Origin: Tetrahymena thermophila SB210
Taxonomy: Eukaryota > Ciliophora > Oligohymenophorea > Hymenostomatida > Tetrahymenidae
Length of the DNA: 64,000 bases
NCBI RefSeq assembly: GCF_000189635.1
Contig: NW_002476433.1
Span: 434,001-498,000, forward strand
Direction of reading: 5' to 3'
Made by a program: the position numbers and the translations under genes. This document shows positions 1 through 31,289 of this stretch, piece by piece. The notes beneath the pieces were generated by a model, which was given only the letters and a program-made list of their open reading frames with translations, made no database searches and was not told the origin of the DNA. Position 1 is the stretch's first letter; each line of letters opens with the position of its first letter.

Positions 1-805
1 TAAAAGAATTTTTAGTTAATTAATATCTCTTAAAACTGAATTTACTTATTGAATCTTTTGTAATTTTGTATGTTTTTTAATAATGAATTTAAAAAAGATA
101 AAATAAACAAAACTATATAGCTTGAAAACTTGGTTTAAACATTTTTAATTTCTTTTTTAAATGTAGCCATTAACTTATAGTTTTGAATTAAATAATTATT
201 TATTTATTTTAATATTACAATTCAAACTATTTTATTACTGCATAATATCAAGCAAAACAAACCATAAAATAATTAATAGTATATCTTTAATTTTTAAGAA
301 ACCATTAATATAAATATTAGTATTAAAGGATAAATTTAGTGAGTTCTGATAAGTAATACCTATAATAAAAATTTTTTAGTTAATTAATACCTTTTTAAAG
401 TGAATTTACTTATAAATTTTTTATAATTTTTCTATATTTTTTAATTATGAATATAAAAAAGATAAAATTAACAAAACTATGGGAAAAAAAAAATATTTAA
501 TTTTTAAATAAAATGAAAGAAAAACTAACTTAAAATAATAAATTAAGAAATAAATTTCATTCTGATAATAGATTAAGTAAATATAAGATAAAAAAACTAA
601 AATAGATATTTTTTTTTTAATTTATTTTTCAGAAAGATGATAAACTGAATAAAAATAATTTTTTTTCAATTAATTAAAGTATTAATAATTAAAAAAAAAT
701 TTATTCTCTTTATAATTAATATTCTATTTAGGTAAATTTGGAAAAATTGCAGATTTTTATTGAAATAGAATCGAGCTAATTAAAACTAATTTTTTTAATA
801 TTTTT
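1..805. repeat. AT-rich gene-free stretch with a local direct repeat
   Basis: No gene is visible. Bases about 1-120 recur imperfectly at about 363-481; both copies share the tract around TTTTTAGTTAATTAATA and the later AAAAAAGATAAAATAAACAAA-like segment. From about 515 onward the sequence matches the block at about 3535-3720, so it is the downstream flank of the first glutathionylspermidine-synthetase-like gene and part of the larger tandem duplication. Confidence 0.6.
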
Positions 806-2491
806 TCAAGAAGAAGAACTAAATCTCTTTCCTGTAGATCCGCCAGATTATCTATGAGTAGTCTTATTTTATTAAGATTATTAAAACATAGTAGTGCCAT
901 GAGTTTAAGTTTAATATTAGTAGTCATGATATCCTGCAAAGTGCCTCATAGTTTTTTCCTACAATTTGATAGATTAAATGTTTTATCTGATTAGATTATC
1001 TTGAAATAACGGGTCAATATACTAAGTTTTTTCAGCTATGTTCTCTTGTAATCTAATCAAGTCAGTATTTGAATTAAATTCTTCTTTTCCATAAAGTGAT
1101 TACCTAATATTAGACTGAGTAGTATCAGTAATTAAATCTATTTATATTTACTATTCATTTTCTGATTATTTTTTTTCAATATAATAAGGAACAACTGAGC
1201 TTCCTTATCCAATAATTGGATTCAGGTCTTCTCTTATTACTATACCGCAAGGTTTACCTTAAATTACCCAACAGCTTAGCGTAATGTATCTTTGTTAGTG
1301 ATGATCAGAATCGATAAACTCTTAAAATATGGGTTTTGAAGAAAATTTCTTGTAAGAATCAGTTTAGAATAATTCAAAATCATTATAATATTTGGAAAGA
1401 ATTATAGAATCTCCTTCCCTTCCATATTTTTACTTAGATACTTAAGGAATACCGCTACCTCCGTATCTTATAGGTTCAAGACTAGCTTTTGCTAAATGAG
1501 GGTTTTAGGGAAACATGTTATACAAAAGCACACTCATAGCTTTATTAGACATAATAATTTTCCAAGGTGGTTCAATCATTATTTATGATTTATTATCATA
1601 AAATTAAGGATTTGTAAAAAAATTATAAGTAGACTCAGATGCTAACCACTCAAAAGGGTATTGCTTCAAAATAATACTTGATTTAAAGTTATCTGATTTT
1701 AATTCATTTTCAATAACATTCTCTATTTTAGAAATGTTTTTTGTGTCAATTGAAATATTTGCCAAGAATGGCTTAATTAGAGAATGTAAATAATTAAAAG
1801 TACACTTATCTTCCCAGTTTGAATTATTAAGCATAAAAAGCTTTGATTTTCCATTCTACTCCATAATCTTTTACAGACCTTATTTTATCTCAAAATCTAT
1901 ATTATTAAACTAAAGAAGTTAGAACTATTCAGCCCATAGCTTTTAAGCTTGTCCTGCTTCAATGATACAAGAGGGAGTATCACCATTTACTTCTAAAAAG
2001 TATAATTATCCATTTTTCCCTAAAATAAAATCATAGCGAGATAGCAAATCTAGTTATCTATTTTCCCATGATTTTCGAATTATAGGAAACATATCTTTAG
2101 GAATATCAAAGACCTCTTTTAATAATAGATCATCATTTAATGCTATATCTGTAGCTTCTAAGCACATATTATGAAGTTCATGTGTAGTTTTGATCAGATT
2201 TGTAAATAGTTTCTCAGATAATTAATAACCAGCACCATCTATCCAATAATTATCATTTGAATAACCAAAAAAATATCCATTCCATCTAGTGCCTTAGAGA
2301 TTATAAAAATCAAAAAATATCTCTCTAAATTTACATTCCAAATCTTTTAATGGTTGAAAATTAGCTCTTCTTTGAACATCAACATTTGTGTCCTACAAAG
2401 AATTAATAAATCTTTTTTTTATTTATGGGAAAATAAAGTCAAGGGCTACTAATCCAACTGCTGCAATAGGTATTTTATATTTTAATAACAT
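806..2491 (-). CDS. glutathionylspermidine synthetase-like ATP-grasp protein (copy 1)
   Basis: Single-exon gene of 561 codons plus TGA (806-808), read with TAA/TAG as Gln from the ATG at 2491. It matches the GSP_synth ATP-grasp family, which ligates a carboxylate (glutathione, or a peptide in uncharacterised members) to an amine using ATP. Visible family motifs are R152-x-D154 in SRYDFIL, E167/N169/D171-TPS in LEVNGDTPS (the E-x-N metal-binding pair), and a C-terminal half with IEPPWKIIMSNKA, KYGREGDS and KPCGIVIRE. There is no N-terminal CHAP amidase domain, so it is synthetase-only like YgiC/YjfC proteins. Residues about 6-21 are hydrophobic, suggesting a signal anchor. The tail (last ~60 residues) is Gln/Ser-rich and diverges from copy 2. 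The actual substrate is unknown; the family call is firm. Confidence 0.88.
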
Positions 2492-3810
2492 TAATATTTT
2501 GATTAAAATTATTAAATTTACTAATATTTTTTAAAATTTATTTTTGATTTAAAATTGAAATCCTAATTTATAAAAATATTTATTTACTCATAAAATAGAA
2601 AAATTTAAGATTTTTCTTTGTTGTAAAAAGAAATTTCTAATAAATTTTGCCTTATCTATTTCACCAAACAAATGAGATCAAATGAATTAAAATAGTTTGA
2701 AAAGCTTTATTTAGGCTAATTAAATTGTTTCCTAACAAATAATAAACAAATAACATAGATTGTTTTACTCAACACATTTAATTTTATTAGATTATAACTT
2801 TACTAATATTATTTGGTAATTTAAAAGGTTTTTTATATTATCATCCTAAATACTCAATATTATTATAATAATCTCGCTATAACTTATATATTGAGATAAT
2901 TAAAACATTTTAATGAAAGCCTTAACTATCCATATTATTAAAAGCTTAGCTTTTTTTATTTTATTTTTATTGTTTTTAACACTTCAATTAATATTCAAAT
3001 TCTAGGTTGACGTTATTCTTTAATTCCATAACCTTCAAACTCTCTTATTAATTTAATAAAAATTAATAGGTAGGATTAATTTGACAGTTTCTTTCTTATC
3101 TCCCTCATATACACACACAGTGCTGCTTATTGAATATGAAACCCCTATTAGTATTTAATAGAAGGAAGTCGCTCAATTCTATGCTTCATATATATTCTTG
3201 TAGAGAATAAAGAGTTGTTTTAAAATACTATTGGGTAATAAATTGAACAAAGAGATATTTTATGTTTTATAAAAAATACAATTTTATAAATTAAAATAAA
3301 TAAATCAACTTTATTTACATTAAAAATATTTTAATAAAATCAATTATGTAAATTTATTTTATAAATGTGATTCAATATTTAGTAGCTTCACCTTTACTTT
3401 AGATTATTGAATATATTCTCCTAGGTAGGCTTTGATACAAGTTATTAATCAATTATTATTGTGTATCTAACCATTTTCAAACAAATTTTCATTTAATTTA
3501 AATCATATGAGAATCAAATAATAACCCTTACTAAAAAAAAAAAAGAAGAAAAATCCACTTAGAAAATAAATTAAGAAATAAATTTAATTCTAATAATAGG
3601 TAGGTATTATAAATTGATAAACAAAAACTAAAATAGATATTATTTATTTATTTACTTACTTACTTATTTATTTTTTCAGAAGGATAATCAACTAAGTAAA
3701 TTAAAGAATTAATATTTTTTTATAAAAATTTATTCTATTTAAAATTAAGAAAGCGCAGGTATTTATTTAAATAGATAAAAGCTAATTAAATTAGTTTTAT
3801 TTATATTTTT
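2492..3810. other. intergenic, upstream of copy 1 and downstream of copy 2
   Basis: No gene seen. About 2590-3115 is repeated at about 5600-6110 (shared tract around TTTTTCTTTGTTGTAAAAAG), and about 3535-3720 repeats 515-720. A short TTTA/TTAC simple repeat lies near 3645-3672. This is non-coding flank of the duplicated synthetase genes; the promoter of copy 1 should lie just above 2491. Confidence 0.6.
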
Positions 3811-5505
3811 TCAGGAATGAGGACTAAACTTCTTTCCTGTAGATCCAGCGGATTATCTATGAGTAGTCTTATTTTAATTAGGCTATTATGCATCTAAAAG
3901 CCTATCAGTAAAAAGTTAGGTGTGCATCTAATTATTTTATGTAGAGCTCATCACAGTTTTTTTCTATAAATAACTGGAGTAATTGTTTTATCTGATTATT
4001 TTATTTTGAAATAACGGGTCAACATACTACTTTTTTTCAGTTATGTTCTCTTGTAATCTAATCAAGTCAGTATTTGAATTAAATTCTTCTTTTCCATAAA
4101 GTGATTACCTAATATTAGACTGAGTAGTATCAGTAATTAAATCTATTTATATTTACTATTCATTTTCTGATTATTTTTTTTCAATATAATAAGGAACAAC
4201 AGAGCTTCCTTATCCAATAATTGGATTCAGGTCTTCTCTTATTACTATACCGCAAGGTTTACCTTAAATTACCCAACAGCTTAGCGTAATGTATCTTTGT
4301 TAGTGATGATCAGAATCGATAAACTCTTAAAATATGGGTTTTGAAGAAAATTTCTAGTAAGAATCAGTTTAGAAAGATTCAAAATCACCTTTATAATAAT
4401 TAGAAAGAATTATAGAATCTCCTTCCCTTCCATATTTTTACTTAGATACTTAAGGAATACCGCTACCTCCGTATCTTATAGGTCCTAGACTAGCTTTTGC
4501 TAAATGAGGGTTTTAGGGAAACATGTTATACAAAAGCACACTCATAGCTTTATTAGACATAATAATTTTCCAAGGTGGTTCAATCATTATTTATGATTTA
4601 TTATCATAAAATTAAGGATTTGTAAAAAAATTATAAGTAGACTCAGATGCTAACCACTCAAAAGGGTATTGCTTCAAAATAATACTTGATTTAAAGTTAT
4701 CTGATTTTAATTCATTTTCAATAACATCGTCTATTTAAGAAATGTTTTTTATGTCAATTGAAATATTTGTTGATATAGGTTTAATTAGAGAATGTAAATA
4801 ATTAAAAGTACACTTATCTTCCTAGCTTGAATTATAAAGCATAAAAAGCTTTGATTTTCCATTCTACTCCATAATCTTTTACAAACCTTATTTGATCTCA
4901 AAATCTATATTATTAAACTAAAGAAGTTAGAACTATTCAGCCCATAGCTTTTAAGCTTGTCCTGCTTCAATGATACAAGAGGGAGTATCACCATTTACTT
5001 CTAAAAAGTATAATTACCCATTTTTCCCTAAAATAAAGTCATAGCGAGATAGCAAATCTAGTTATCTATTTTCCCATGATTTTCGAATTATAGGAAACAT
5101 ATCTTTAGGAATATCAAAGACCTCTTTTAATAATAGATCATCTTTTAATACTCTATCTGTAGCTTCTAAGCACATATTATGAAGTTCGTGTGTAGTTTTG
5201 ATTAGATTTGTAAATATGTTCTCAGATAATTAATATCCAGCACCATCTATCCAATAATTATCATTTGAGTAGCCAAAAAAAAGTCCTTTCCATCTAGTAC
5301 CTTCGATTTTATAAAAATCAAAAAATATCTCTCTAAATTTACATTCTAAATCTTTTAATGGTTGAAAATTAGCTCTTCTTTAAACATCAACATTTTTGTC
5401 CTCCGAATTATTATTACTTCTTTTTCCTATTTATGGGTAAATAAAGTCAAACGCTAGTAATCCAGCTGCTGCTGCTGCAATATTATATTTTAATAACTTT
5501 AACAT
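3811..5505 (-). CDS. glutathionylspermidine synthetase-like ATP-grasp protein (copy 2)
   Basis: Single-exon gene of 564 codons plus TGA (3811-3813), ATG at 5505. It is a close tandem paralogue of the upstream minus-strand gene, with the same GSP_synth ATP-grasp motifs (SRYDFIL, LEVNGDTPS, EPPWKIIMSNKA, GREGDS, CGIVIRED) and again no amidase domain. The N-terminus has an alanine-rich hydrophobic stretch (residues about 8-21). Nucleotide identity with copy 1 is high across the catalytic core. All the indels I checked are multiples of three (for example a 3-base insertion near 4388), so both copies look functional. The C-terminal ~70 residues are strongly rearranged except for a shared QNKTTHRQS-GST segment. 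Function is inferred from family only. Confidence 0.88.
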
Positions 5506-7218
5506 TTTAATAAAATTATTTAATTTACTAATTTTTTTAAAATTTATTTTTATTTATAATCGAAATCTTAATTTTATAATTATACTTATTCATAAAATAG
5601 AAAAAATTTTAGATTTTTCTTTGTTGTAAAAAGAAATTTCTAATAAATTTTGCCTTATCTATTTCACCAAGTAAAGGAGATCAAATTAATCAAAATAATT
5701 TGAAAATCTATATTTAGGCTAATGAAATTGTTTCCTACAAATATAAAACTAAATCAGATAGATTTTTACTCTATACATTTAATTTTATTAGCATATAACT
5801 TCACTTTACATTATTTGGTAATTTTAAAGGTTTTTTCTATTATTATCCTAAATAATATTATTATTTCAAGCTCACTATAATATTGATTGAGATAATTAAG
5901 AAATTTTAATCAAGGCCCAGATTTGCCACATTATTAAAGCTTTGTTTTATCTATTTTATTTTTACTTTGTTAAAACTTCAATTAATATTCAAATTCTATG
6001 AAGACATTATGATTTAATTAGCAGCTATCAAACTCTCTTTTTAATTTTATAAAAATGAAAAGGAAGGAGTAATTTGACCCTTTCTTTCTTATATCCATCT
6101 GATTATCTCTAATTTCATTTATATAAAACCCATCATAGTATTCTATCATTTAAAAGATTTCATTTTTTTCCTTAGTTTTTCATATTTTTTTACCACTGAC
6201 ACCACTTCTAACAGCTTTATCTGAATTATGAACAACAATAAAGAAAGGGGTTAAAGATTTTATTAAAATATGTTTTTTTATAAAAAAAATATTAAAATCA
6301 TTAAAAATTAAAATTTAAGGATTGTATTTTTTTAAAATAAATTTAACTAAATTCATTCACCTATCACCATCAATTTAAATAATAAATTAAATTAATAAGT
6401 AAGTAAGTATATATTGTTATATCTATCAGCTTCTTTTACTTCTTTAAGAGATTCAATAAGGATACCTTTGTGAAATTAAAAGATTTTTGATTTGAAGCTT
6501 TTCAAAAAAAAAAACTTAATTAGATGGAATAAAAATGCACTTTAAAATAAGGATATAAATAAATATTCTTAATTTGATTAATATCTAATTTTTTTAATTT
6601 TTATTTTGTAAATTATATTTAAAAATTTAATAAGTTGAATTATGTCTTATTGTTTATTCCTTAAAAAAAAAAATAAAACCATATTTATTTATGTTCAGTT
6701 TTAAAGGAGTTCTAATTAATAAAATTTACAATAAAAAATTAAAACAAATTATCTAAAAACTAAATTCTGAGTCTTTCTTTGTTTTGTTTGTAGGGTCTAA
6801 TATCTTTTCAATTTATTTAATATTTTTAGTTATAAAAAAGGAAAGCTTATAAAAAATAGATTAATAAATTTTTGATAATTTATTTAAATTATTCTTCTTT
6901 TTTAACAAAGATTAATAATTTTTAATATCATTTACACTTATTTAATAAAAATTAATAATTTTATTTAAGTATTTTATTCATTTTATTTAAAAGAGAAAAA
7001 GGAGATAAAGTAATGGAAAGTAAGCTTTATAAATTTATGAGATCATAGAAATAAAATTTAAATCACAAATTATGAGAAGAAAAATAATAAATTTTGAAAG
7101 TTTAACATAGTGTAACAAATTAATTAGCATATGCTATTTATTTTCTTAGGTAAAGTATTTGCTAAAATAAATATTTATTAATGAATGGAGTAAGTAATAT
7201 ATATTTAATAATAAATTC
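5506..7218. other. intergenic, no gene seen
   Basis: Very AT-rich. The first ~600 bases are the duplicated upstream flank of the synthetase-like copy 2. From about 6110 to 7218 I see only homopolymer-rich sequence without a sustained reading frame in the ciliate code. It contains the 3' flank of the VIT/VWA gene. Confidence 0.5.
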
Positions 7219-10074
7219 TCAAATTTATAATAATTGTTGAATTTATAATTTTAATTGGTTAAAGTCTCCTTCTTCTTTAATTTAAGATTTAATAAAACTT
7301 AAAGATTTTTTAGAGATAAGAATCCATTTGGATTTCTCTTGGCCATATTTATTCTCAAGGATTACTAATATGAATAAAGTCATAAAAGCATCACAGGTTG
7401 CAAACGAAGTAGTGAGTTATTTAACTTTAGTTAAATCTATTTGAGATAGTTTTGTAATTAAATTTTCATCAAATTACCAAATTCCTTCAGAATTTACCAA
7501 ATTGAGTAAATCTTCAAGTTTTAGTAAGGAATGAGTGGTTTGATATTATAGCTTTGGTAAAGTTATATTTTATTATTTATTTTAATCTACTCTTTTACAT
7601 TTCTCATCATCTTTCAACTCTTTGGATTTAGTCTTTTTTTCTTTCTTATTTTGTTAAGTACTTGATTAAAATGCGAATTTTCTACATTCACTTACACTTT
7701 CACTTTCACTACTAGATTCATCTGAACCTGATTCAATATTTTTTAAATTATTTACAAACTAATTTTTCTACTCGGATTCACAACTATTTTCTTCTAGTGA
7801 ATTCATTTGTTTAGATTTCTTCATAGCTCTTCTTCTAGGTTCTACTTCATCAAGAAGGCTTGAAGCTTCTTTACATTTTTATGAAATCTAATTATTTAAA
7901 TTGGACTTTAAAATTTTACAATCAATTGCAGATTAAGGCTTAGAAATGCTTTTGAAAGATTAATCTTCATAATGCTAAATATGCTAAGAAGTGTTAAATG
8001 ATGGACTCTAAATTTTATTTTTTGGCAAATATTTTATAGAAGACGACAATTTTTGATTCATATCCCTAACTTTGCATTTTTTCATGATTTTCATTTAACT
8101 GAAATCTTTATCTTCTTCTTCTTCATCATCATCTTAACTATCTAAATCATCTTTTTCAAATCTAGAATTTTCATAAGTTTTGTTATGGCTTATGTTTTCA
8201 AACATGATTTTTTATTCATCATTTAATGTTTCAATTACGCATATCAAAGCTGTTCTTTGAGTAAGAAGCTGGTAGTCGATAGCTTACTAAACTAATTATT
8301 AACTATTATCATTTTATAATGAAAGATTTTCATTCAAATACAATTATTTTCCAATTTTAAAAACAGACTATTGTAGTTGAGGATTACATGTAAAGCTGTC
8401 TTACATCTCGAGCTTTATTTCTTTCTAAATTTTTTGTTTTTTGCGAGAGTCGTAATATTCAATCTAAATTCTTTTCTATTCATCAGTCAAGCTTGCCAAA
8501 TCTACTAGAGGTTTGAAAAAGAAATGAATATTAATTATTTCATCCTTGAAAACGCAAGGAAAATTTGTGCTAGAAGGATATGTAGATTCGAAAACGGATT
8601 TATCATACATAATACTGAAATCATCAAATGTGGGAGTTATACACATAGAGAGCATATTAATTATAACTTCAGATAAATCACATTTAAGGTCAACAATTTT
8701 TGAAATACCTTTCCCTGCTATTGCACTCTAATTTATTAAATACTAGTCTGCTCCTGAACCAAAACCAATAGAATGAACTCTACTAAACTTGTTATTCTTT
8801 CTAATAAGACTTATAACTTATTCAGGCGAATCTACTTCACCATCAGTCAATAAGAATACTTGTTTGTTATATCCTTGAATCTTATTTTGTACAAATACAT
8901 TTTTTAATGGTTTATAAATTTCAGTTCCACCTAAGTCAGCTTTATATTTACTGATATTTGAAATGGCTTTTTCCAAACTTTAACTATTGTACTTTTCTGA
9001 TTGAGGAAATAGTAATTTGAAACTCGAACCGAAGCTGATAACATTAAAGTAGCTATCAGTTGGAAGACTTTTTAAGAATAATGTAAGAGCTTGACAAGCT
9101 CTATCAATAGGTTAGCCACTCATTGATCCACTTCTATCCAAGAGGAAGATAAATTCACTTCTTGAAGAATTCAAGTGATCAACTAATTCTTAGTTTAATT
9201 TTTGTTAAAATTCATCACTTAGGATATTATCTCCATTATTTATTGCAGCTCTAATAGTGTCATCTATTTCTTTTGTTATTTCTTCATTGAAATTAGGAAC
9301 AAATGAAACCATTGCAGAGTGACTTACAGGAAGGATAGCGCTTTTAACTGAGTCTTAGTGAAATATTTTGCTAGATCCTAGAATTACTTGAGGATCAAAC
9401 ATACCTTCATAAGAAAATATAAGCTAGAAATCTATGTCTTTCTACAAAAGAGCATGACTTAGATTAAATCTTGCAGTGTTATCATCAATCATTATTTTTT
9501 CTACTGGATAGCCTCTAGACTCTGCATAAGAGATTTTACCTGTGCAGAATAGATCAAGTGTTAAGGCATTCTTACCTAATTTAGCTGAAACTTCATCTTC
9601 GCAGTATATCAGAGGAATATTAGCAATAAAATACTTATTTAACATACTGCTTAACTATTAAGTAAAAACGAGAGTTATTTCTACATGTTTATTTGGAGGT
9701 AAGTTTCCTAATAGAATTTTGCAGTAATCTTGATCTTTGATAGTTTAAGTCTGAGCATATGAAACAAAATTCCCTTAATTCTTGTTTTGATGATATTCTT
9801 TTTTGGCTTCAGTTTTATCTTTAACAATACCTTTGATGGTTTTTTAATCATATTTAGCTTCGAAGGATTCTAAGCAAACCCCTTCTTCAATTGGGAAAAA
9901 GTAAACAGTCTAAGAGTATTCATTGATTGATTTACTAATGAAAGTTTAGGATAAGTTTATATTAAGAATGTTATTTATGATTTAGCATTTATATTCAATG
10001 CTCTGTAAAGTAGCTGGCACTTTATCAGAGATAAGCTAAAAGTCTTAGGCTTTTAATTTTCTTAGCTTAAACAT
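7219..10074 (-). CDS. VIT and von Willebrand factor A domain protein (VWA5A/PARP4-like)
   Basis: Single exon, 951 codons plus TGA (7219-7221), ATG at 10074. Domain order: VIT (vault/inter-alpha-trypsin) about residues 15-140, including YFFPIEEGVCLESFEA and CKILLGNLPPNKHVEITLVF; VWA about 305-475 with an intact MIDAS, DRSGSMSG (D313, S315, S317), then LGGTEIYKPL and VFLLTDGEVD. A charged, Ser-rich linker with Glu/Asp runs follows. The C-terminal segment (LLNLVNSEGIWQFDENL ... WILISKKSLSFIK) resembles the conserved tail of VWA5A/PARP4-type proteins. No ADP-ribosyltransferase domain is present. VIT-VWA proteins are usually cytosolic or extracellular metal-dependent binding proteins; the partner is unknown. 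No signal peptide is visible, which favours an intracellular role. It has no operon-like neighbour. Confidence 0.9.
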
Positions 10075-23489: not shown

Positions 23490-25494
23490 ATGGAGGAAGA
23501 ACTAAACGAAAAATATGTAATTTTTTATAAGTTAAATAGCGTGTGTTTTTAAGTGTTATTTTATTAAATAATAGTAAAGCCAATATGCTTTAGATACTTC
23601 TTATGAAGTTATTGATATCTCAAATAATAAGACACAATAAGTAAAAAATTTCGAAATTACCAAAAACAAATTTGATACTAAAATGGATATTGAAAATCAG
23701 AAGACACAATAACCAGATTTTACAGAGAAATAAAATGGTCTTTCAGTTAAATATCAAGAAAGCAATCTCTACAATAACTATGGTTTGCCATAAGCTAAAT
23801 AGGTTTAATTGAATATGGAATAGACTCTTTATTAAAAAGAATAATAACCAATTTAAAGCGCATCCAATCAATAAAATTTAAATATTAAAACTACAGCAGT
23901 TATTGAAAATAAGTTTTTAGAGTAGTAAAATATATTGAACTAAAATACTATTTTAGATACTGTAACTAAATTAGATGGAGATTAAAACAAAAATAAAGAA
24001 AAAACTAATACTAATATTGAAAAAAAAAGCGAAAATGAGTAATTACTAAATAAATTAGCTTAGAATAAAGATTATTCATAAATAAATTATGGAATTTTTA
24101 AAAATTATAATTATATAAATTATTAAACAGATTAAAAATTAGATTAGTTTTACTCCTAAAATTAACAAAAATAATAGGAATATACATATTCTGAAAAATA
24201 AAAAGAGTAATATTTGAATGCATAAGAAATAAAGTTCTAAGATTTTAAAAATCAAAATATTTATGATGATAAATAACCACCATAAGCAATCGAATAATTA
24301 GAATAGCTAGTTAAAGAATAATAGGTCTTCAGCGATTAAGGAAAAAGCTAAACTAATTAAGGCAACATTTTTACAAAAATATTTAATAAAAAAAGCGATT
24401 TTCCTAATTAATTATATAATCCAACTATTATTAATAAATGCAACCCATTGAATACAAATATCAAAAATAAAATATAAAATCCCAATTTATCAATTAAAAT
24501 CGAAGATATTATTAAATATGCTCCTCTTAAACAATTTAGCATTTCTATAAAACAAACTATATACAACAAACTAATCTAAAGTTTGAGTGATGAAGATAAA
24601 AAATAAGAATTGCATATTTTAAGATGTGTAAAAGATATTGATCTTCCTAAGAATAAATTATGTGAAGAATTATTAAAAACTGAATTAAAATAATAGTAAG
24701 ATACTTTCTCTTATTTTAAACCTCCCCATGATGAATGTCATTGGTATTTAAACTTTGCAGACAATAAGCTGTTCGGTTTTTATACATCAGCCCTCTATGC
24801 TTAAGATGAGTTACAATGCACAGAAATGCCTATGCTTGCACATGTGAAAGAATACTTGGAAACCTAAAGATCTGTTCCTAATCTAAAACCTAGAACTTAG
24901 GAAAAAGATGAGCCAACACCTGTCTTAATAGTAAATGTTCCTCGTATTGGAACTATTGACATTAATCCTGATTAAAAATACAGACAAGGTCTTTATGGAA
25001 ACAATTTTAGATAGCTCAAAGAATAGGATTTACCTTAAAAATTAACAATATTTGAGAAAGAAAATTTAGTTTACACAAATATAATAGCCATGTCAGCTAT
25101 CGGGTATGGAAACGGGTAATATACTAAAGATTAAATAATATTTACACTGTATACAGCTTACAAAGCTTTCAGATAAGCTTTAGAAATCACTAATTTATAC
25201 TATCCTAATTAAAAGTGTGTTATTCATACAGGAAATTGGGGATGTGGAGCTTTTGGCAATAATTACCAATTGATTGCAATTTTGCAAATTTTAGCAGCAA
25301 ATCTAGCAGGAGTAGATAAAATGTATTATCACACTTTCAGTTAACATGGAACTGATTAATTTAATATAGGATAAGCAATTTATTACTAGATAATATAAAA
25401 TTTAGCTTCTAATAAAGGTGAAGTAAAAATAAGTAAAATTATTGAAGAAATATAAAAAAAAAAATTTGTTTGGGGTTAATCAGATGGAAATTGA
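23490..25494 (+). CDS. PARG-like (poly(ADP-ribose) glycohydrolase family) protein, diverged loop, copy 1
   Basis: Two exons: 23490-23516 (MEEELNEKY) and 23575-25494, joined by a 58-base intron; 648 residues, TGA at 25492-25494. Residues 1-~300 are Gln/Asn/Lys-rich and disordered. The C-terminal ~300 residues match the PARG macrodomain fold: NFADNKLFG (402-410), YTSALYAQDELQ with Q419-D420-E421 at the place of the family's QEE, then TGNWGCGAFGNN (561-572) and ILAANLAGVDKMYYHTF. The family hydrolyses ribose-ribose bonds in poly(ADP-ribose), with the last Glu of QEE as catalytic acid. Aligned without gaps, the diphosphate-binding GGG is F-G-F here, so ordinary PARG activity is doubtful. It ends in WGQSDGN, as does its paralogue at 29649. 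It is convergent with the tubulin-ligase-like gene. The superfamily call is firm; enzymatic activity is uncertain. Confidence 0.85.
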
Positions 25495-25800
25495 CATAAA
25501 ATTATTTCAATAAAAATCTACTTTTATTGATTGAATTTTTAAATCGTTTTTAATAAACAAACACATGGTCCACAATTATATAAATATAAATAAAAGTTAA
25601 ATTATTTAATGCTTTTTTGTGTCTTTTTATTTATTTTTTTGACTATTTTTTATTGAATTCACTCTTAACTCTATTAATATATTATTTCGAAAGGATGTAT
25701 TTCTTATTTATTTGTTAATTCTTCAATATTTTATTTGATATTTTCAAATCCTTCATTTACTGCCAAAACAATGTCTAATGCCTATTTTTTTTATTATTAA
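25495..25800. other. 3' intergenic between convergent genes
   Basis: 306 AT-rich bases between the stops of PARG-like copy 1 and the tubulin-ligase-like gene. No feature was seen beyond short poly(T) runs. Confidence 0.5.
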
Positions 25801-28614
25801 TCAAAAGTTATAAATTTTATAATTTATCTAAATTAATTATTCAAACTGCCACAAATTATTTTATTAAATTTTTTTTTTTTTGAAGAAAGTAAGTTATATT
25901 TTTATTACTTTGTGCATCATTTGTGGTATTACTTTCTCTTAGCTAGTAGTATCCACAAAAAGTGCTGGATTTGTGTTAACTTCAAGTAAATAAGGTTTCA
26001 AATTCTAGTCAATCAGTATATCAACACCAAGTAATTCGTATTAACCTACTTTCTTTTCTAATTTTGGATAACCTGCTAAAACAACATGTCTAATTATTTT
26101 TTTTATTTGATTCCACATCTCATTTTGCTTTTCTTATCCAAATTAATAAACCTTTTCAACATATTCCTATATATAAAACAAATATTAATTAATTATTATC
26201 AAAATCTATTTTAGATTGATTATCCATTATAATATCAAATTAAAGCAAATAACAAAAATTACTGAAAGTTTCTCAATAGTCCATATAGAGTCTTCTTTAT
26301 GTGCTTTAAAATCTTTATGAGATTTTTGAATTGCATTATTTGTAAGGTGGCAATATTTATTATTTTTGCTCTCTACATCTTCTAAAGAGTATTCCTGCAA
26401 ACATACTCTAGCATATCCTTTGTTGAATAGAAGCAAAAGGGGTTTTGTACTAGCAATCAGTCCATAACACCTTATATCAAATTTACGCTTATTAAGAAGG
26501 AGTGGTTCTTTAATATACTTTTAAATAATAGAGTGATGTGAAATACCATCATATTTAAATTTAGGTTATTCTTAAACTTTATTTGTTTCTTAATTATCTA
26601 ATGAACTACTTTATTGGTCTTTGCTATCATTTTATATACTATTTTTTTATAATTATTCAATTTAATTATCTTCAATCGAATTGTCTTTTTTAATCAAGTA
26701 GGCTGTTGTATATTCTCCTAATTTATATTTCTTTGTTTCTACGAATTCTCTCTTGAAAGTTACTATATCTCCAATCATTATTATTCCTCTTCCCATATTG
26801 TTGTTATGTGGTTTTAATATCCAAATGCTATTTGGATCTGTTTCTTAAGTTAGGAAAGCTATTTCATCACTCATCATATCTAGTTAGTAGCTCTCTGGGA
26901 AAAAATCTTTAGAGCTTATTTCAAGATCAGCAATATTTTTATGTTCTTCATAAGATTTCAGCAAATTAACTAAACCAACTTTGCTGGTAAAAATGTTAAT
27001 ATTTGGAATGTGGTTTACAATCTATACAATATTAATATTAAAATTCAGTTAGAAAATTATTTTAAATAATTTTTACTTAGGTTGCTTCTTTAAAAGAAAA
27101 AAAGTCAATTTCAGAAGTTGTCTAAACCCACTTAAAAAAATATTTATTTGAAAAAGCCTTAGAAGCATCTAGTAAAGTGTAGCCAGGAATATTTGAAAAG
27201 TATTTTCTTATTAGATTATCATTATTACCCTTTCCAACAAACACATATTTAGACTCATCTTTTTTAGTTTTAATACTTTATTTTAAAGAGAATTTTGCCA
27301 ATTAGTTAGCAGCCTGTTGTACTTGTCTATTTTCTTTATCCTCTTAATTTTCATCTATTTCTTCTTTTTAATCTGCATCTTCGTTTTCTTCTAATGTAGG
27401 ATCTGAAAATACTGAAAATTTATCTGGAACCCAAAGATCTCTATCATCTCTCCAAGGATGTTCCTTACAACAGGATCTAATTTAATTAAAAAAGTATTGA
27501 GATTCTGTAGGATAAATAAATTATTTTTATTACTAGCAAATACCATCAAGCCAAGGATCTAACGATCTATAATAAAATTAAATATCATAGTAATTTTTGC
27601 TGACAAACTTATAGCTATCATGATATTAAACAAAGCCCTTCTGCCATCTTGCTCCTATATATTATTAATTAAATTAGGAAATTGTTCAGCTAAAAATTCA
27701 AATTTAAAAATATGATTGAAAAAATTTAAACTTCTTTAATAAAATAAATTAAAAGAATTATTTTAAAATTCACTCAAAACTTGAGCTTTTATTCACAAAA
27801 AAGCTTATAAATATAAATTGAATGCAACTTAAATTTACCTATTGTTTGTTCACCTGTCTCTCCTCCAGTAAACACTTCTACATGCACCATCTTATGAGGG
27901 AAAGGTTTAAGCTTTTTATATTTTTCCAAAATTTATTATATTAATTGACTGATCACTTAGATTGATATTTATTTACTTTTTCGTTATAGTAAGTTCCAGA
28001 ATAAAAAATTAAATCACCAGGCTTCATTTCTTCAAATTTTACTTCTTTTGGGCAAACATCAAACTGATAAGCCTAAAAAAAAATATGAATTATTAAACAA
28101 GAAACAAGTGAAAAATGAATAAATTTTTTTTATCTCAATTATATCTTTGATTATTATTATTAATACCTGATTCCATCTACCAAGAGTAAATCCAAAGTCT
28201 TCTCTGAGATCATAAACAACCTATCTTATCAAACCACAGCAATCTAAATAAAGAGGAGCATTATGATGAGATTCTCCTTCAGTCCAGTACCTAATTATTG
28301 AATTGAAAATATGATTTTAGTGTTTATATAATTTATTTTTTATTCAATTACTTTCTATGGTAAGGAACACCAAAGTACTTTTTACACTAATCAATAAACT
28401 TTTATCTTAAAGCCTCTTTAAATTCAGCAGTTCTCCTTTCATCTTATTTCTTAGCTTTTAAATATTTTGCATGTTTCATTTTTTCATATCTTTCTTTTCT
28501 AAACTTCTAAAAAGATTCTTAGAGAGACTTTTTACTTGCATCGTTTAGGTCTTCTTAGTTATCGTTATTTTATTCGACCTTTAAAATTTCCTTTTCTAGA
28601 TTGGTATCAGCCAT
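25801..28614 (-). CDS. NlpC/P60-like domain fused to tubulin-tyrosine-ligase-like (TTLL) ATP-grasp domain
   Basis: Seven exons on the minus strand: 28614-28352, 28290-28167, 28072-27977, 27911-27839, 27654-27077, 27021-26263, 26166-25801; all introns (55-184 bases) are GT..AG and all phases close on the TGA at 25801-25803, giving 752 residues. Residues 1-85 are charged helices. Residues ~84-230 look like an NlpC/P60-type cysteine-peptidase fold: YFGVPYHRKYW, L103-D-C105-C-G-L-I-R (cf. DCSGLV) and a later MVHVEVFTGG with H171. Residues ~290-710 are a TTL ATP-grasp: WILKPHNNNMGRG (K448), KFDIRCYGLI, KYCHLTNNAIQK and LEVNTNPAL (E693, N695). TTLs add Tyr, Glu or Gly to tubulin tails. The combination suggests an enzyme that both attaches and removes a peptide-type modification; this is inference. 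Exon 7 contains a run of 13 A. Confidence 0.85.
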
Positions 28615-29648
28615 TTAAGAGCTTATATTTTAAGAATTTAAATACTTCTATATGTTTGTTTGTTTGTTTTCTTAATTTATTTTTAAATTACAAAATTTTT
28701 AAATATCTTTCTTTTCTATATTTATTGATATAATTATTATTAAATCAGCACTTTTCTAATGAAGATTTAAAAATTTAAAAACCACAGATTGCATAAATGC
28801 TGATGGACAATCTTTTCTCTTTAATCTCATTCTATCTGTAATGAAGTATTGTTTTTATAAAATTATAAATTTACTAATCAGTAGAAATAATTTAAGAATT
28901 TTATTTACAAATAAAAACTTTAATAATTCTAAAAAATTTTTTATTTAACATATAAACCATTATTTTAAGCATTTAGTTCTACCTCAAATTGCTTCAAAAA
29001 TTCAAAGCAAAAAGAATGAATTTCTAAAAATAATAAGAACTACATCACTTTATTTTAGAAGGGTAACTGGTTATATTTGATTTTGAAAATAATATTAATT
29101 TTGTAATATGTTTTCAATTTAAATAAACAATTATCAAATTTTAATTTTTATCTTTCTTATTTTATTAATGAGATACCAACTCTTTTAAATATTAAAAAAA
29201 TATTTTGAATGTTAATGTTTTCAGAAATTTAGTATCTTTTTATGTCTAAGATAGATTTTTTATTTATTTAAGATGCAAAATTTGTCCTTAACTATTTCAG
29301 AGTCTTTAAATATTATTTATTAAATATTCTTAATTGAAATTAATAATAATCAAAAGTATTTTCTTGTTTTATTGACTTTTTATTAATATGGATGGATGGT
29401 ATTTTAATAGCAATTTCAGAGGAAAAATATTTGTATACTTTTGTAATTTTTGCAATGAAATTTAGGTGCTTAGATATTAGAATATATCAATAAAAATATA
29501 AGGGGTAAAGCGTTTTTATTCAAATGCCATCAATCAAAGATTTTCGATTTATTTATATTTCAAAATACCTAAAAAATATTAGTTATTTATTCTCAAATGT
29601 TAATTAGTAAAATTATTAATTTAAAGCAAATAAATAAATCTAAAATAA
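28615..29648. other. divergent intergenic region
   Basis: About 1 kb gene-free DNA between the starts of the TTLL-like gene (minus) and PARG-like copy 2 (plus); both promoters should lie here. A TTTG simple repeat is at about 28653-28668. No other structure was recognised. Confidence 0.5.
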
Positions 29649-31289
29649 ATGAGTAGTAGCTATAATAAAGCTTTGGGTACTAACAACAATAAGAATACAA
29701 AAAATAATTTAAAGGATACAGAACAGAAAGGAGGTATATAGATGAACGTTTAAGGAATTCCTTTAAAAAATTAGCAAGTTTAAACAAATTAAATTCCAGC
29801 AGCAGGAAAGCCTAGCAAAAAAAATGATAAAAATGACATGCTGAATTAATTAAATAAAAAAGAAGAAAAAGTGATAAAAAGTGAAGGATCTTAATAAGCT
29901 TAAAGTCAAAAAAATACAACATAGGTCAAGAAGGATAGCTAAATTAAAAATTAAAGTCAACAATAATAACATGAAAGTAAACATTCTACTGATAATAATA
30001 GTAAAGCATAAATTCCATAAAATGGTAGTAATGCACCAAATTTGTAGTAAATTAAACAACAAAATTATGATTACGAATAACATGGATAACAACATTTTGA
30101 TAGTGACTAGGGAGAAGAATAAAAAGAACTTTAGCCAAATACAAATGAATTATCTGATAATGCATTGAAAAAGTAAAATTTAATTTGCTAATTGGGCAAT
30201 TTGGCTCTTTAAAGAGATGAATCTAAAGTTTAAATCAATAAAATTTGTGAAGACAATAAGAACTAAAGTATAAAAATTAGGATTGACTAAGATAATTCAT
30301 TTGAAGCAAGCATAGAAGATTTATTGAAATAAAAAATTAAAGATTTTTAGATAGAAAGCAAATTAATAATATACTCAAACTATATACACAGTTTAAATAG
30401 TGATGATATCAAATTAGCTATGAAATATATCAGAATAGTTGATAATATACCCTTGCCTTAAATTACTAATCCTAGTATTACTTATGATAGAAATAATTTC
30501 ACCTACAAAGAGAGTATTTATATGTATGAAAAACCGACAAGTGCATTAGAGAGACATTGGTATGTTAACTTTGCAGATTAAAACTTATTTGATTTCTATA
30601 ACACATCGTTATTTGCATAGGATGAAATCTAAGTTAGTGAGCATCCTCTCCTTGCTCATGTCCTTGAAAAAGTTTAAACACTAAAAAGCAAATACCCTTA
30701 GCTAGCTCCTAAAACTTATAATGGCCTTACTCCTACTCCAATTTTAATCACCAACTGCCACAGATTAGGTACAGTAGATACTTAAGGAGCTAAATTTTAT
30801 GGTAATAATTTCTAAAGAATGACAAAACAGGAACTTTAAAAGAATATGAAAGTATTTGATAAAAATAAAACTGTTTCTAATATAATTTGTATGGCAGCAA
30901 TGGGATATAAGCGTGGATACTATACTTAAGAGCAAATTAAATTTACACTTGAGACAGCTTATAAATCCTTTTATGCTGCAAGATATATTACTGAATAATA
31001 TAATATATGCCATAAGTGTGTGATCAATACTGGAAACTGGGGCTGCGGTGCATTTGGAAATAATCCTGAATGTATTGCATTAATTTAATTAATAGCTGCT
31101 TAACTTGCAGGAATAGAGATTCTAGTTTATCATACATTTAATAAAAATGGAACTTACAGTTTCAAAGACGGATAAGACTACTATCAAAAATATGTCCTTA
31201 ATATGCAAGGTAAGAACCCAAAATTGGATGATATAGTTAATTACATTTACAACATCAAATTTAAATGGGGTTAATCAGATGGAAACTGA
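29649..31289 (+). CDS. PARG-like protein, diverged loop, copy 2
   Basis: Single exon, 546 residues, ATG at 29649 and TGA at 31287-31289. The first ~200 residues are Lys/Asn/Gln/Ser-rich and disordered. The C-terminal half is a PARG-type domain: NFADQNLFDFY (307-317), TSLFAQDEIQ with Q324-D325-E326 at the QEE position, PTPILITNCHRLGTVD, then TGNWGCGAFGNN (461-472), IAAQLAGIEILVYHTF and the terminal KWGQSDGN. As in copy 1, the expected GGG loop is replaced, here by F-D-F (314-316), while the catalytic Glu position is kept. It has no intron, whereas copy 1 has one after nine codons. The shared C-terminal GQSDGN end and shared loop change imply a distinct subfamily under selection rather than decay. 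Ligand unknown. Confidence 0.85.

Follow-up and report, generated by a model that had tools for sequence, protein, structure and literature searches.

What does a PARG-like protein do when both elements of the catalytic signature of poly(ADP-ribose) glycohydrolase are replaced? Two such proteins, W1 and W2, are encoded in a 64,000-nucleotide stretch of Tetrahymena thermophila SB210 (contig NW_002476433.1, positions 434,001 to 498,000), hereafter the window. With its open reading frames (ORFs) read in the ciliate code (code 6), W1 extends over 23515-25494 and W2 over 29388-31289, both on the + strand and including the stop codon. The limits of W1 are those of the ORF and the gene start may differ; the true start of W2 may lie downstream. 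Each has a Gln-rich N-terminus followed by a PARG-like macrodomain. An earlier note had read both proteins as PARG-like from the sequence, and the Pfam profile PF05028 (PARG_cat_C, cut-off 26.3 bits) indeed matched W1 with 64.2 bits (1.7e-17) and W2 with 60.5 bits (2.2e-16). The analysis described here suggests that the two belong to a distinct PARG-like macrodomain family, whose members are most likely, if tentatively, (ADP-ribosyl)hydrolases with changed acceptor specificity. Besides this ciliate, a scattering of bacteria carry the family.

We aligned the proteins with canonical PARGs. A MAFFT alignment that included four canonical PARGs from the same genome placed F-x-F on GGG and QDE on QEE without a gap, and hhalign returned the same gap-free match for 6 versus 4 sequences (probability 98.4%) and for 35 versus 10 sequences (99.1%), thus reproducing the substitution that the earlier note had described. 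In W1, F-G-F (24772-24780) and Q-D-E (24802-24810) lie in the rebuilt catalytic loop region WYLNFADNKLFGFYTSALYAQDELQCTEMPML (24742-24837), which is conserved across the family alignments. In W2, F-D-F (30588-30596) and Q-D-E (30618-30626), placed also by the profile-profile alignment, lie in the corresponding region WYVNFADQNLFDFYNTSLFAQDEIQVSEHPLL (30558-30653). The E of QDE in W1 aligns with Glu756, the catalytic residue of human PARG (PMC3519477). A check of the whole proteins found neither GGG nor QEE anywhere in W1 or W2, and hence no true GGG-x-QEE outside the aligned loop. Downstream, both keep GNWGCGAFG in the stretch TGNWGCGAFGNN (25228-25263 in W1, 31029-31064 in W2), and both end in the same WGQSDGN (25471-25491 and 31266-31286). 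The note had, however, taken GGG for the diphosphate loop. The authors of the human PARG structure give the name diphosphate loop to GAFG and describe GGG-X6-8-QEE as a motif specific to PARGs that bears the catalytic residues (PMC3519477), and a review likewise names GGGx6-8QEE the catalytic motif (PMC7050489). Thus, the family keeps the diphosphate loop and alters the catalytic loop.

Residues were then counted on 42 aligned family rows, 6 from the T. thermophila genome and 36 others (3 of them from the genome G001 and 1 from a viral-contig record), and on 11 PARG rows for comparison, making 53 rows in all. Left out on the family side were the fragments L055, L056, L057, L074 and L094, copies of one locus, L084, whose motif strings equal those of another row, and a decayed seventh own-genome copy without the catalytic loop; on the PARG side, the intron-split own-genome loci L036, L037 and L038, and L064, which is much like L063. 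Among these, L055 and L056 still carry F at the first G together with QDE, L057 and L074 do not span the loop stretch, L094 is without any motif, and L036 to L038 all read GGG...QEE. One retained row, L053, is truncated at the C-terminus. As a result, the first-G column held F in 42/42 family rows and G in 11/11 PARG rows, and the triad was QDE in 42/42 versus QEE in 11/11, a substitution beyond chance. The second F of F-x-F proved not to be family-wide (third-G column: A14 F12 Y9 G4 C1 S1 W1), and the following position is nearly always aromatic (Y38 W1 F1 C1 G1), so that F-x-x-aromatic fits as the signature in place of the proposed F-x-F. Furthermore, the residue before Q is Ala in 41/42 family rows versus Val in 11/11 PARG rows, and DFAN of PARG has become NFAD. 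When human positions were placed by motif, the family had Asn at Asp737 (42/42), Asp at Asn740 (37/42), Asp at Glu755 (42/42) and the kept Glu at the catalytic acid Glu756 (42/42). The strict pattern N[FY].D..LF..[YFW]...[LP][FLM]AQDE.Q..E.P.L matched 30 of the 42 rows, and a C-terminal W[GSHA].[SG][DN]G[NT] was present in 35, in 21 of these as exact WG.SDGN. In the diphosphate loop WGxGAF, W, G and G are each found in 42/42 and F or Y in 41/42, and the column of the Tyr-clasp (human Tyr795, placed by the motif YTGYA) is Tyr in all 42 family and all 11 PARG rows. In the tree, the family and the PARGs are split by a long branch (1.89), with no intermediate row among the 53.

The altered residues raise the possibility of a non-catalytic reader, whose pocket would bind ADP-ribose or the end of poly(ADP-ribose) (PAR) with a rebuilt loop that no longer hydrolyses. 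In bovine PARG, the equivalents of Asp737-to-Asn or Glu755-to-Asn abolish catalysis, and the inhibitor ligand is bound without significant loss (passages of PMC3519477); the family has Asn at the former site and Asp at the latter in every row. The Gln-rich N-terminal extensions of W1 and W2 could, in addition, be interaction regions. A pure reader would, however, have no need of the invariant catalytic Glu, and active enzymes share part of the difference, since active DrPARG, a microbial PARG with the catalytic loop GGGFLGGAQAQ, also has Ala before the triad (as described in PMC6445106). Microbial PARGs also have Asp at the Asn740 position, according to the review (PMC7050489), and the family loop thus mixes canonical and microbial features. 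Together with a fusion and operons with another ADP-ribose hydrolase, described below, which suggest catalysis, these points make the reader rather unlikely, and we rank it second, behind a hydrolase for a different acceptor.

We next turned to the T. thermophila genome as a whole, over which PF05028 gave 15 match stretches, some of them exons of one gene. By our reading, nine of these form seven canonical PARG loci (two on contig C13, two on C122 and one each on C97, C17 and C114), all of which carry GGG-X7-QEE, and six are of the new kind (two on C115, two on C328 and one each on C178 and C251). Protein queries recovered the same six copies and a weak seventh. Each of the six has F[GD]F[YC]...L[FY]AQDE and GNWG.GAFGNN, and over the motif 169 of 318 pairwise identical-residue comparisons among them (Met and Trp excluded) show a synonymous codon difference; Tetrahymena thus holds at least six intact family genes. 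The seventh copy (L031; 7991-9160 in + coordinates, reverse strand), on the contig C328 of two intact copies, scores 22.4 bits with PARG_cat_C, under the cut-off; it has lost the catalytic loop, and its diphosphate loop reads GYIGCGTYNNN, with the W gone, which makes it a candidate pseudoenzyme or pseudogene. This copy would fit a view of the whole family as decaying pseudoenzymes without function. Yet the six intact copies keep the motif amid synonymous codon change and the same F and QDE recur in bacteria, so that decay is largely refuted by the conservation counts and seems most improbable, and the earlier note was right to prefer a distinct subfamily. Neither the paralogues nor the bacterial relatives restore GGG.

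Among the canonical loci, L035 (on C97) is identical to the T. thermophila PARG of 4EPP over residues 21-477, with two preceding residues differing where the construct begins; the crystallised TtPARG is therefore encoded in the same genome. This, with the kept fold, diphosphate loop and catalytic Glu, would suit an ordinary PAR glycohydrolase, in which the loop would be a neutral alternative and PAR still the substrate. Such an enzyme is nevertheless unlikely, given the complete separation of F/QDE from G/QEE (42/42 versus 11/11), the branch of 1.89 without intermediates and the seven canonical PARG loci that the genome already has. In a survey table, the entry for T. thermophila in what we take to be the PARG column is '+7' (PMC4245714); this equals the canonical count here, and the new kind may have gone uncounted. 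As a separate observation, the ADP-ribosylglycohydrolase profile PF03747 has eight match stretches in the genome, on contigs C328, C167, C271, C162 and C144; one of them, on C328, lies at a distance of about 80 kb from the family genes of that contig. In the window itself, a tubulin-tyrosine ligase family gene (25804-27777, - strand; PF03133, 1.6e-45) lies between W1 and W2.

To view the fold, W2 was modelled by AlphaFold over 30294-31286 (+ strand; 331 aa, pLDDT 91.6, pTM 0.91) on a 35-sequence alignment, an earlier model from 6 sequences having had low confidence at the loop; in the present model, confidence is low at the last residues. Fold comparison matched the model with the PARG macrodomain fold, which supports the claim that this fold is kept. 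The model, which begins at W2 residue 303, aligns with TtPARG from 117 and with human PARG from 621 onward only; in canonical PARGs, a helical accessory domain precedes the macrodomain. As for profiles, Pfam, NCBIfam, PADLOC and PHROGs on 24 members gave mostly PARG_cat_C only (22/24 at E <= 0.1), with weak TIGR02452 (12/24 at E <= 0.1, best 1.5e-4; 14.4 bits of the 50-bit cut-off for member 1) and single weak matches. At E <= 0.01, PADLOC gave one weak match (0.0039) in 1 of the 24, and PHROGs matched none of them.

The family can thus be set against its known relatives. Like canonical PARGs (PF05028; human PARG, TtPARG 4EPP), it matches PARG_cat_C over the cut-off and shares the fold, the diphosphate loop and the Tyr-clasp, but it lacks the signature GGG-X6-8-QEE and has instead F-x-x-aromatic, QDE, NFAD, Ala before Q, its own WG.SDGN-like tail and a separate clade. 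From microbial PARGs (DUF2263/TIGR02452; TcPARG, DrPARG) it differs in having neither GGG nor QEE and in the TIGR02452 score of member 1 under the cut-off, and the W2 model scores lower on microbial PARG folds than on canonical ones. The Arg-specific macrodomains of DUF4804 (MavL class) are hydrolases without the PARG signature as well, and their second motif WDxx[S/A]xPGN[D/E] loosely recalls the family WG.SDGN (from the portion of PMC10951314 cited). However, the family keeps the QDE triad and GxWGxGAF, its tail, which is shorter, forms the end of the protein, and the DUF4804 loop was not seen in it when row ends and six ciliate sequences were judged by eye. DUF4804 had no match in the 24 members at E <= 0.1, and CG2909, CG3568 and MavL are not among the 50 fold matches listed for the W2 model; membership of MavL/DUF4804, to which the aromatic loop and the W..S.GN at the C-terminus had first pointed, was set aside since there was no Pfam or PDB sequence match. 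ADP-ribosylglycohydrolase (ARH, PF03747), a neighbour or fusion partner at four loci, is of another Pfam family and could be a functional partner only.

Scanning bacterial and archaeal genomes by pattern yielded 26 loci, of which 7 (L058-L064) are PARGs with GGG or GGA and with QEE, the other 19 being members or fragments of the family; a ciliate-only oddity was thereby ruled out. Two of these bacterial PARGs, L061 and L062, have GGA for GGG before QEE, and a survey reports the same for some eukaryotic bacterial-type PARGs. Profile searches were made in the genomes of the phylum around each seed locus, the seed genome included, and found the family in 1/344 genomes for the Treponema locus (the seed itself), 4/301 for the Chloroflexi locus, 5/294 for the Phycisphaerales locus, 12/195 for the Myxococcales locus and 4/288 for the Verrucomicrobiaceae locus, where G1145 matches only weakly and in part and G001 has probably been misbinned. 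The contigs that carry five of the Myxococcota matches are 5 to 13 million bases long. One member (L119) is encoded by pTS2, a complete plasmid of T. saccharophilum. In the stretch 101-7960 of this locus, the gene directly upstream of the member has three related ORFs further upstream, the surroundings hold leucine-rich-repeat genes, and a weak DNA_pol3_beta match there is under its cut-off. With L050 as the single query, phage records gave 0 of 50,697 and plasmid records 1 of 72,556, and viral contigs gave 0 loci, then 1 with a wider alignment; a phage or plasmid origin was accordingly rejected. The locus L114 (G001:C376) holds three family copies, the nearest relatives of the ciliate genes. 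Its metagenome-assembled genome is named Verrucomicrobiaceae, and the contig looks eukaryotic, with a P2X-receptor-like ORF, a hint of a further protist, one that uses the standard code.

We then examined the bacterial neighbourhoods, listing 135 neighbour ORFs at 25 loci (with some places counted twice and, where the DNA is GC-rich, some ORFs that are probably not genuine). Of these, 81 were scanned, then selected ones singly, and the profiles of the L115 neighbours were also run over all ORFs of all collected loci. ADP-ribosylglycohydrolase adjoins or is fused with the family gene at four places. At L115, one strand (248-4243) reads NrtR, DSP-PTPase-like phosphatase, family gene, KptA/Tpt1 and ADP-ribosylglycohydrolase; L108 reads NrtR, family gene and ADP-ribosylglycohydrolase; L112, in a genome from the Chloroflexota sample, has a single 715-residue ORF (3915-6059) joining ADP-ribosylglycohydrolase and the PARG-like domain; and at L056 the gene stands upstream of an interrupted, shortened family gene. 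Such a neighbour is present for 3 of the 36 tree rows from outside this genome, for which the chance is about 2e-5, a rough guide that takes such genes to be one in 4000 and counts six neighbour positions, with rows not all independent and flank lengths that differ. The L115 and L108 clusters would also suit an enzyme on a small ADP-ribose derivative, namely ADP-ribose 1''-2'' cyclic phosphate or the ADP-ribose-1''-phosphate left by KptA/Tpt1, in nicotinamide adenine dinucleotide (NAD) recycling. KptA stands beside a family gene once only, however, and the macrodomain phosphatases for ADP-ribose-1''-phosphate form a class of their own and have another loop, and we hold this, too, to be improbable.

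We therefore return to a hydrolase for a different acceptor, which is favoured because the adenosine and diphosphate parts and the catalytic Glu are kept and the part near the distal ribose and the leaving group has been remodelled with aromatics. The adenosine and diphosphate of ADP-ribose would be bound as in PARG, and the Glu of QDE would serve as general acid, acting at the C1'' bond of the distal ribose. The aromatic F..Y loop, standing where PARG has flexible glycines, would line the leaving-group side and may admit an acceptor other than a further ADP-ribose unit, such as a mono-ADP-ribose adduct on RNA or protein, or a phosphate of ADP-ribose. Judging from the bacterial gene contexts, the role may be to clear ADP-ribose adducts together with ADP-ribosylglycohydrolase, KptA/Tpt1 and NrtR. 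Human and bacterial-type PARGs are described as stripping ADP-ribose from RNA 2'-OH, and the bacterial type as also acting on KptA-type phosphate ends (passages of PMC11833690). Several points weigh against this assignment: Asn (42/42) and Asp stand at the Asp737 and Glu755 sites, where Asn kills bovine PARG catalysis (PMC3519477, as above), and the catalytic-loop glycines are gone; among all loci collected, ADP-ribosylglycohydrolase was found at four places only, NrtR at two and KptA at one; the other annotated neighbourhoods had no linkable gene; and the ciliate genes offer no operon context. Of the note's alternatives, a new ligand or a non-catalytic reader, the former is weakened, since retention of the parts that bind ADP-ribose speaks against an entirely different ligand. 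The kept Glu and the neighbouring ADP-ribose genes tend to favour an active enzyme, with the reader as a rival of low probability. A bolder proposal, possible but doubtful, is a separate macrodomain hydrolase class of bacteria and ciliates, in which the F..Y loop and the C-terminal WG.SDGN tail would define a new acceptor pocket for a non-PAR adduct (RNA-, phosphate- or arginine-linked). It would be NrtR-regulated and work with ADP-ribosylglycohydrolase, and the Tetrahymena lineage would have acquired it from bacteria, a putative direction, and then expanded it.

A literature search, with most subscription journals outside its reach, brought up no paper recognised as describing the family, which is likely new in print. 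Which ADP-ribose adducts each macrodomain removes is an open question in the field, and here is a family caught only as PARG, through a partial Pfam match, with a loop rebuilt alike in every full member examined. A direct test is made practical by a compact bacterial member, the ADP-ribosylglycohydrolase fusion and a tractable ciliate with six copies. The family also shows that a PARG_cat match alone does not imply poly(ADP-ribose) hydrolysis.

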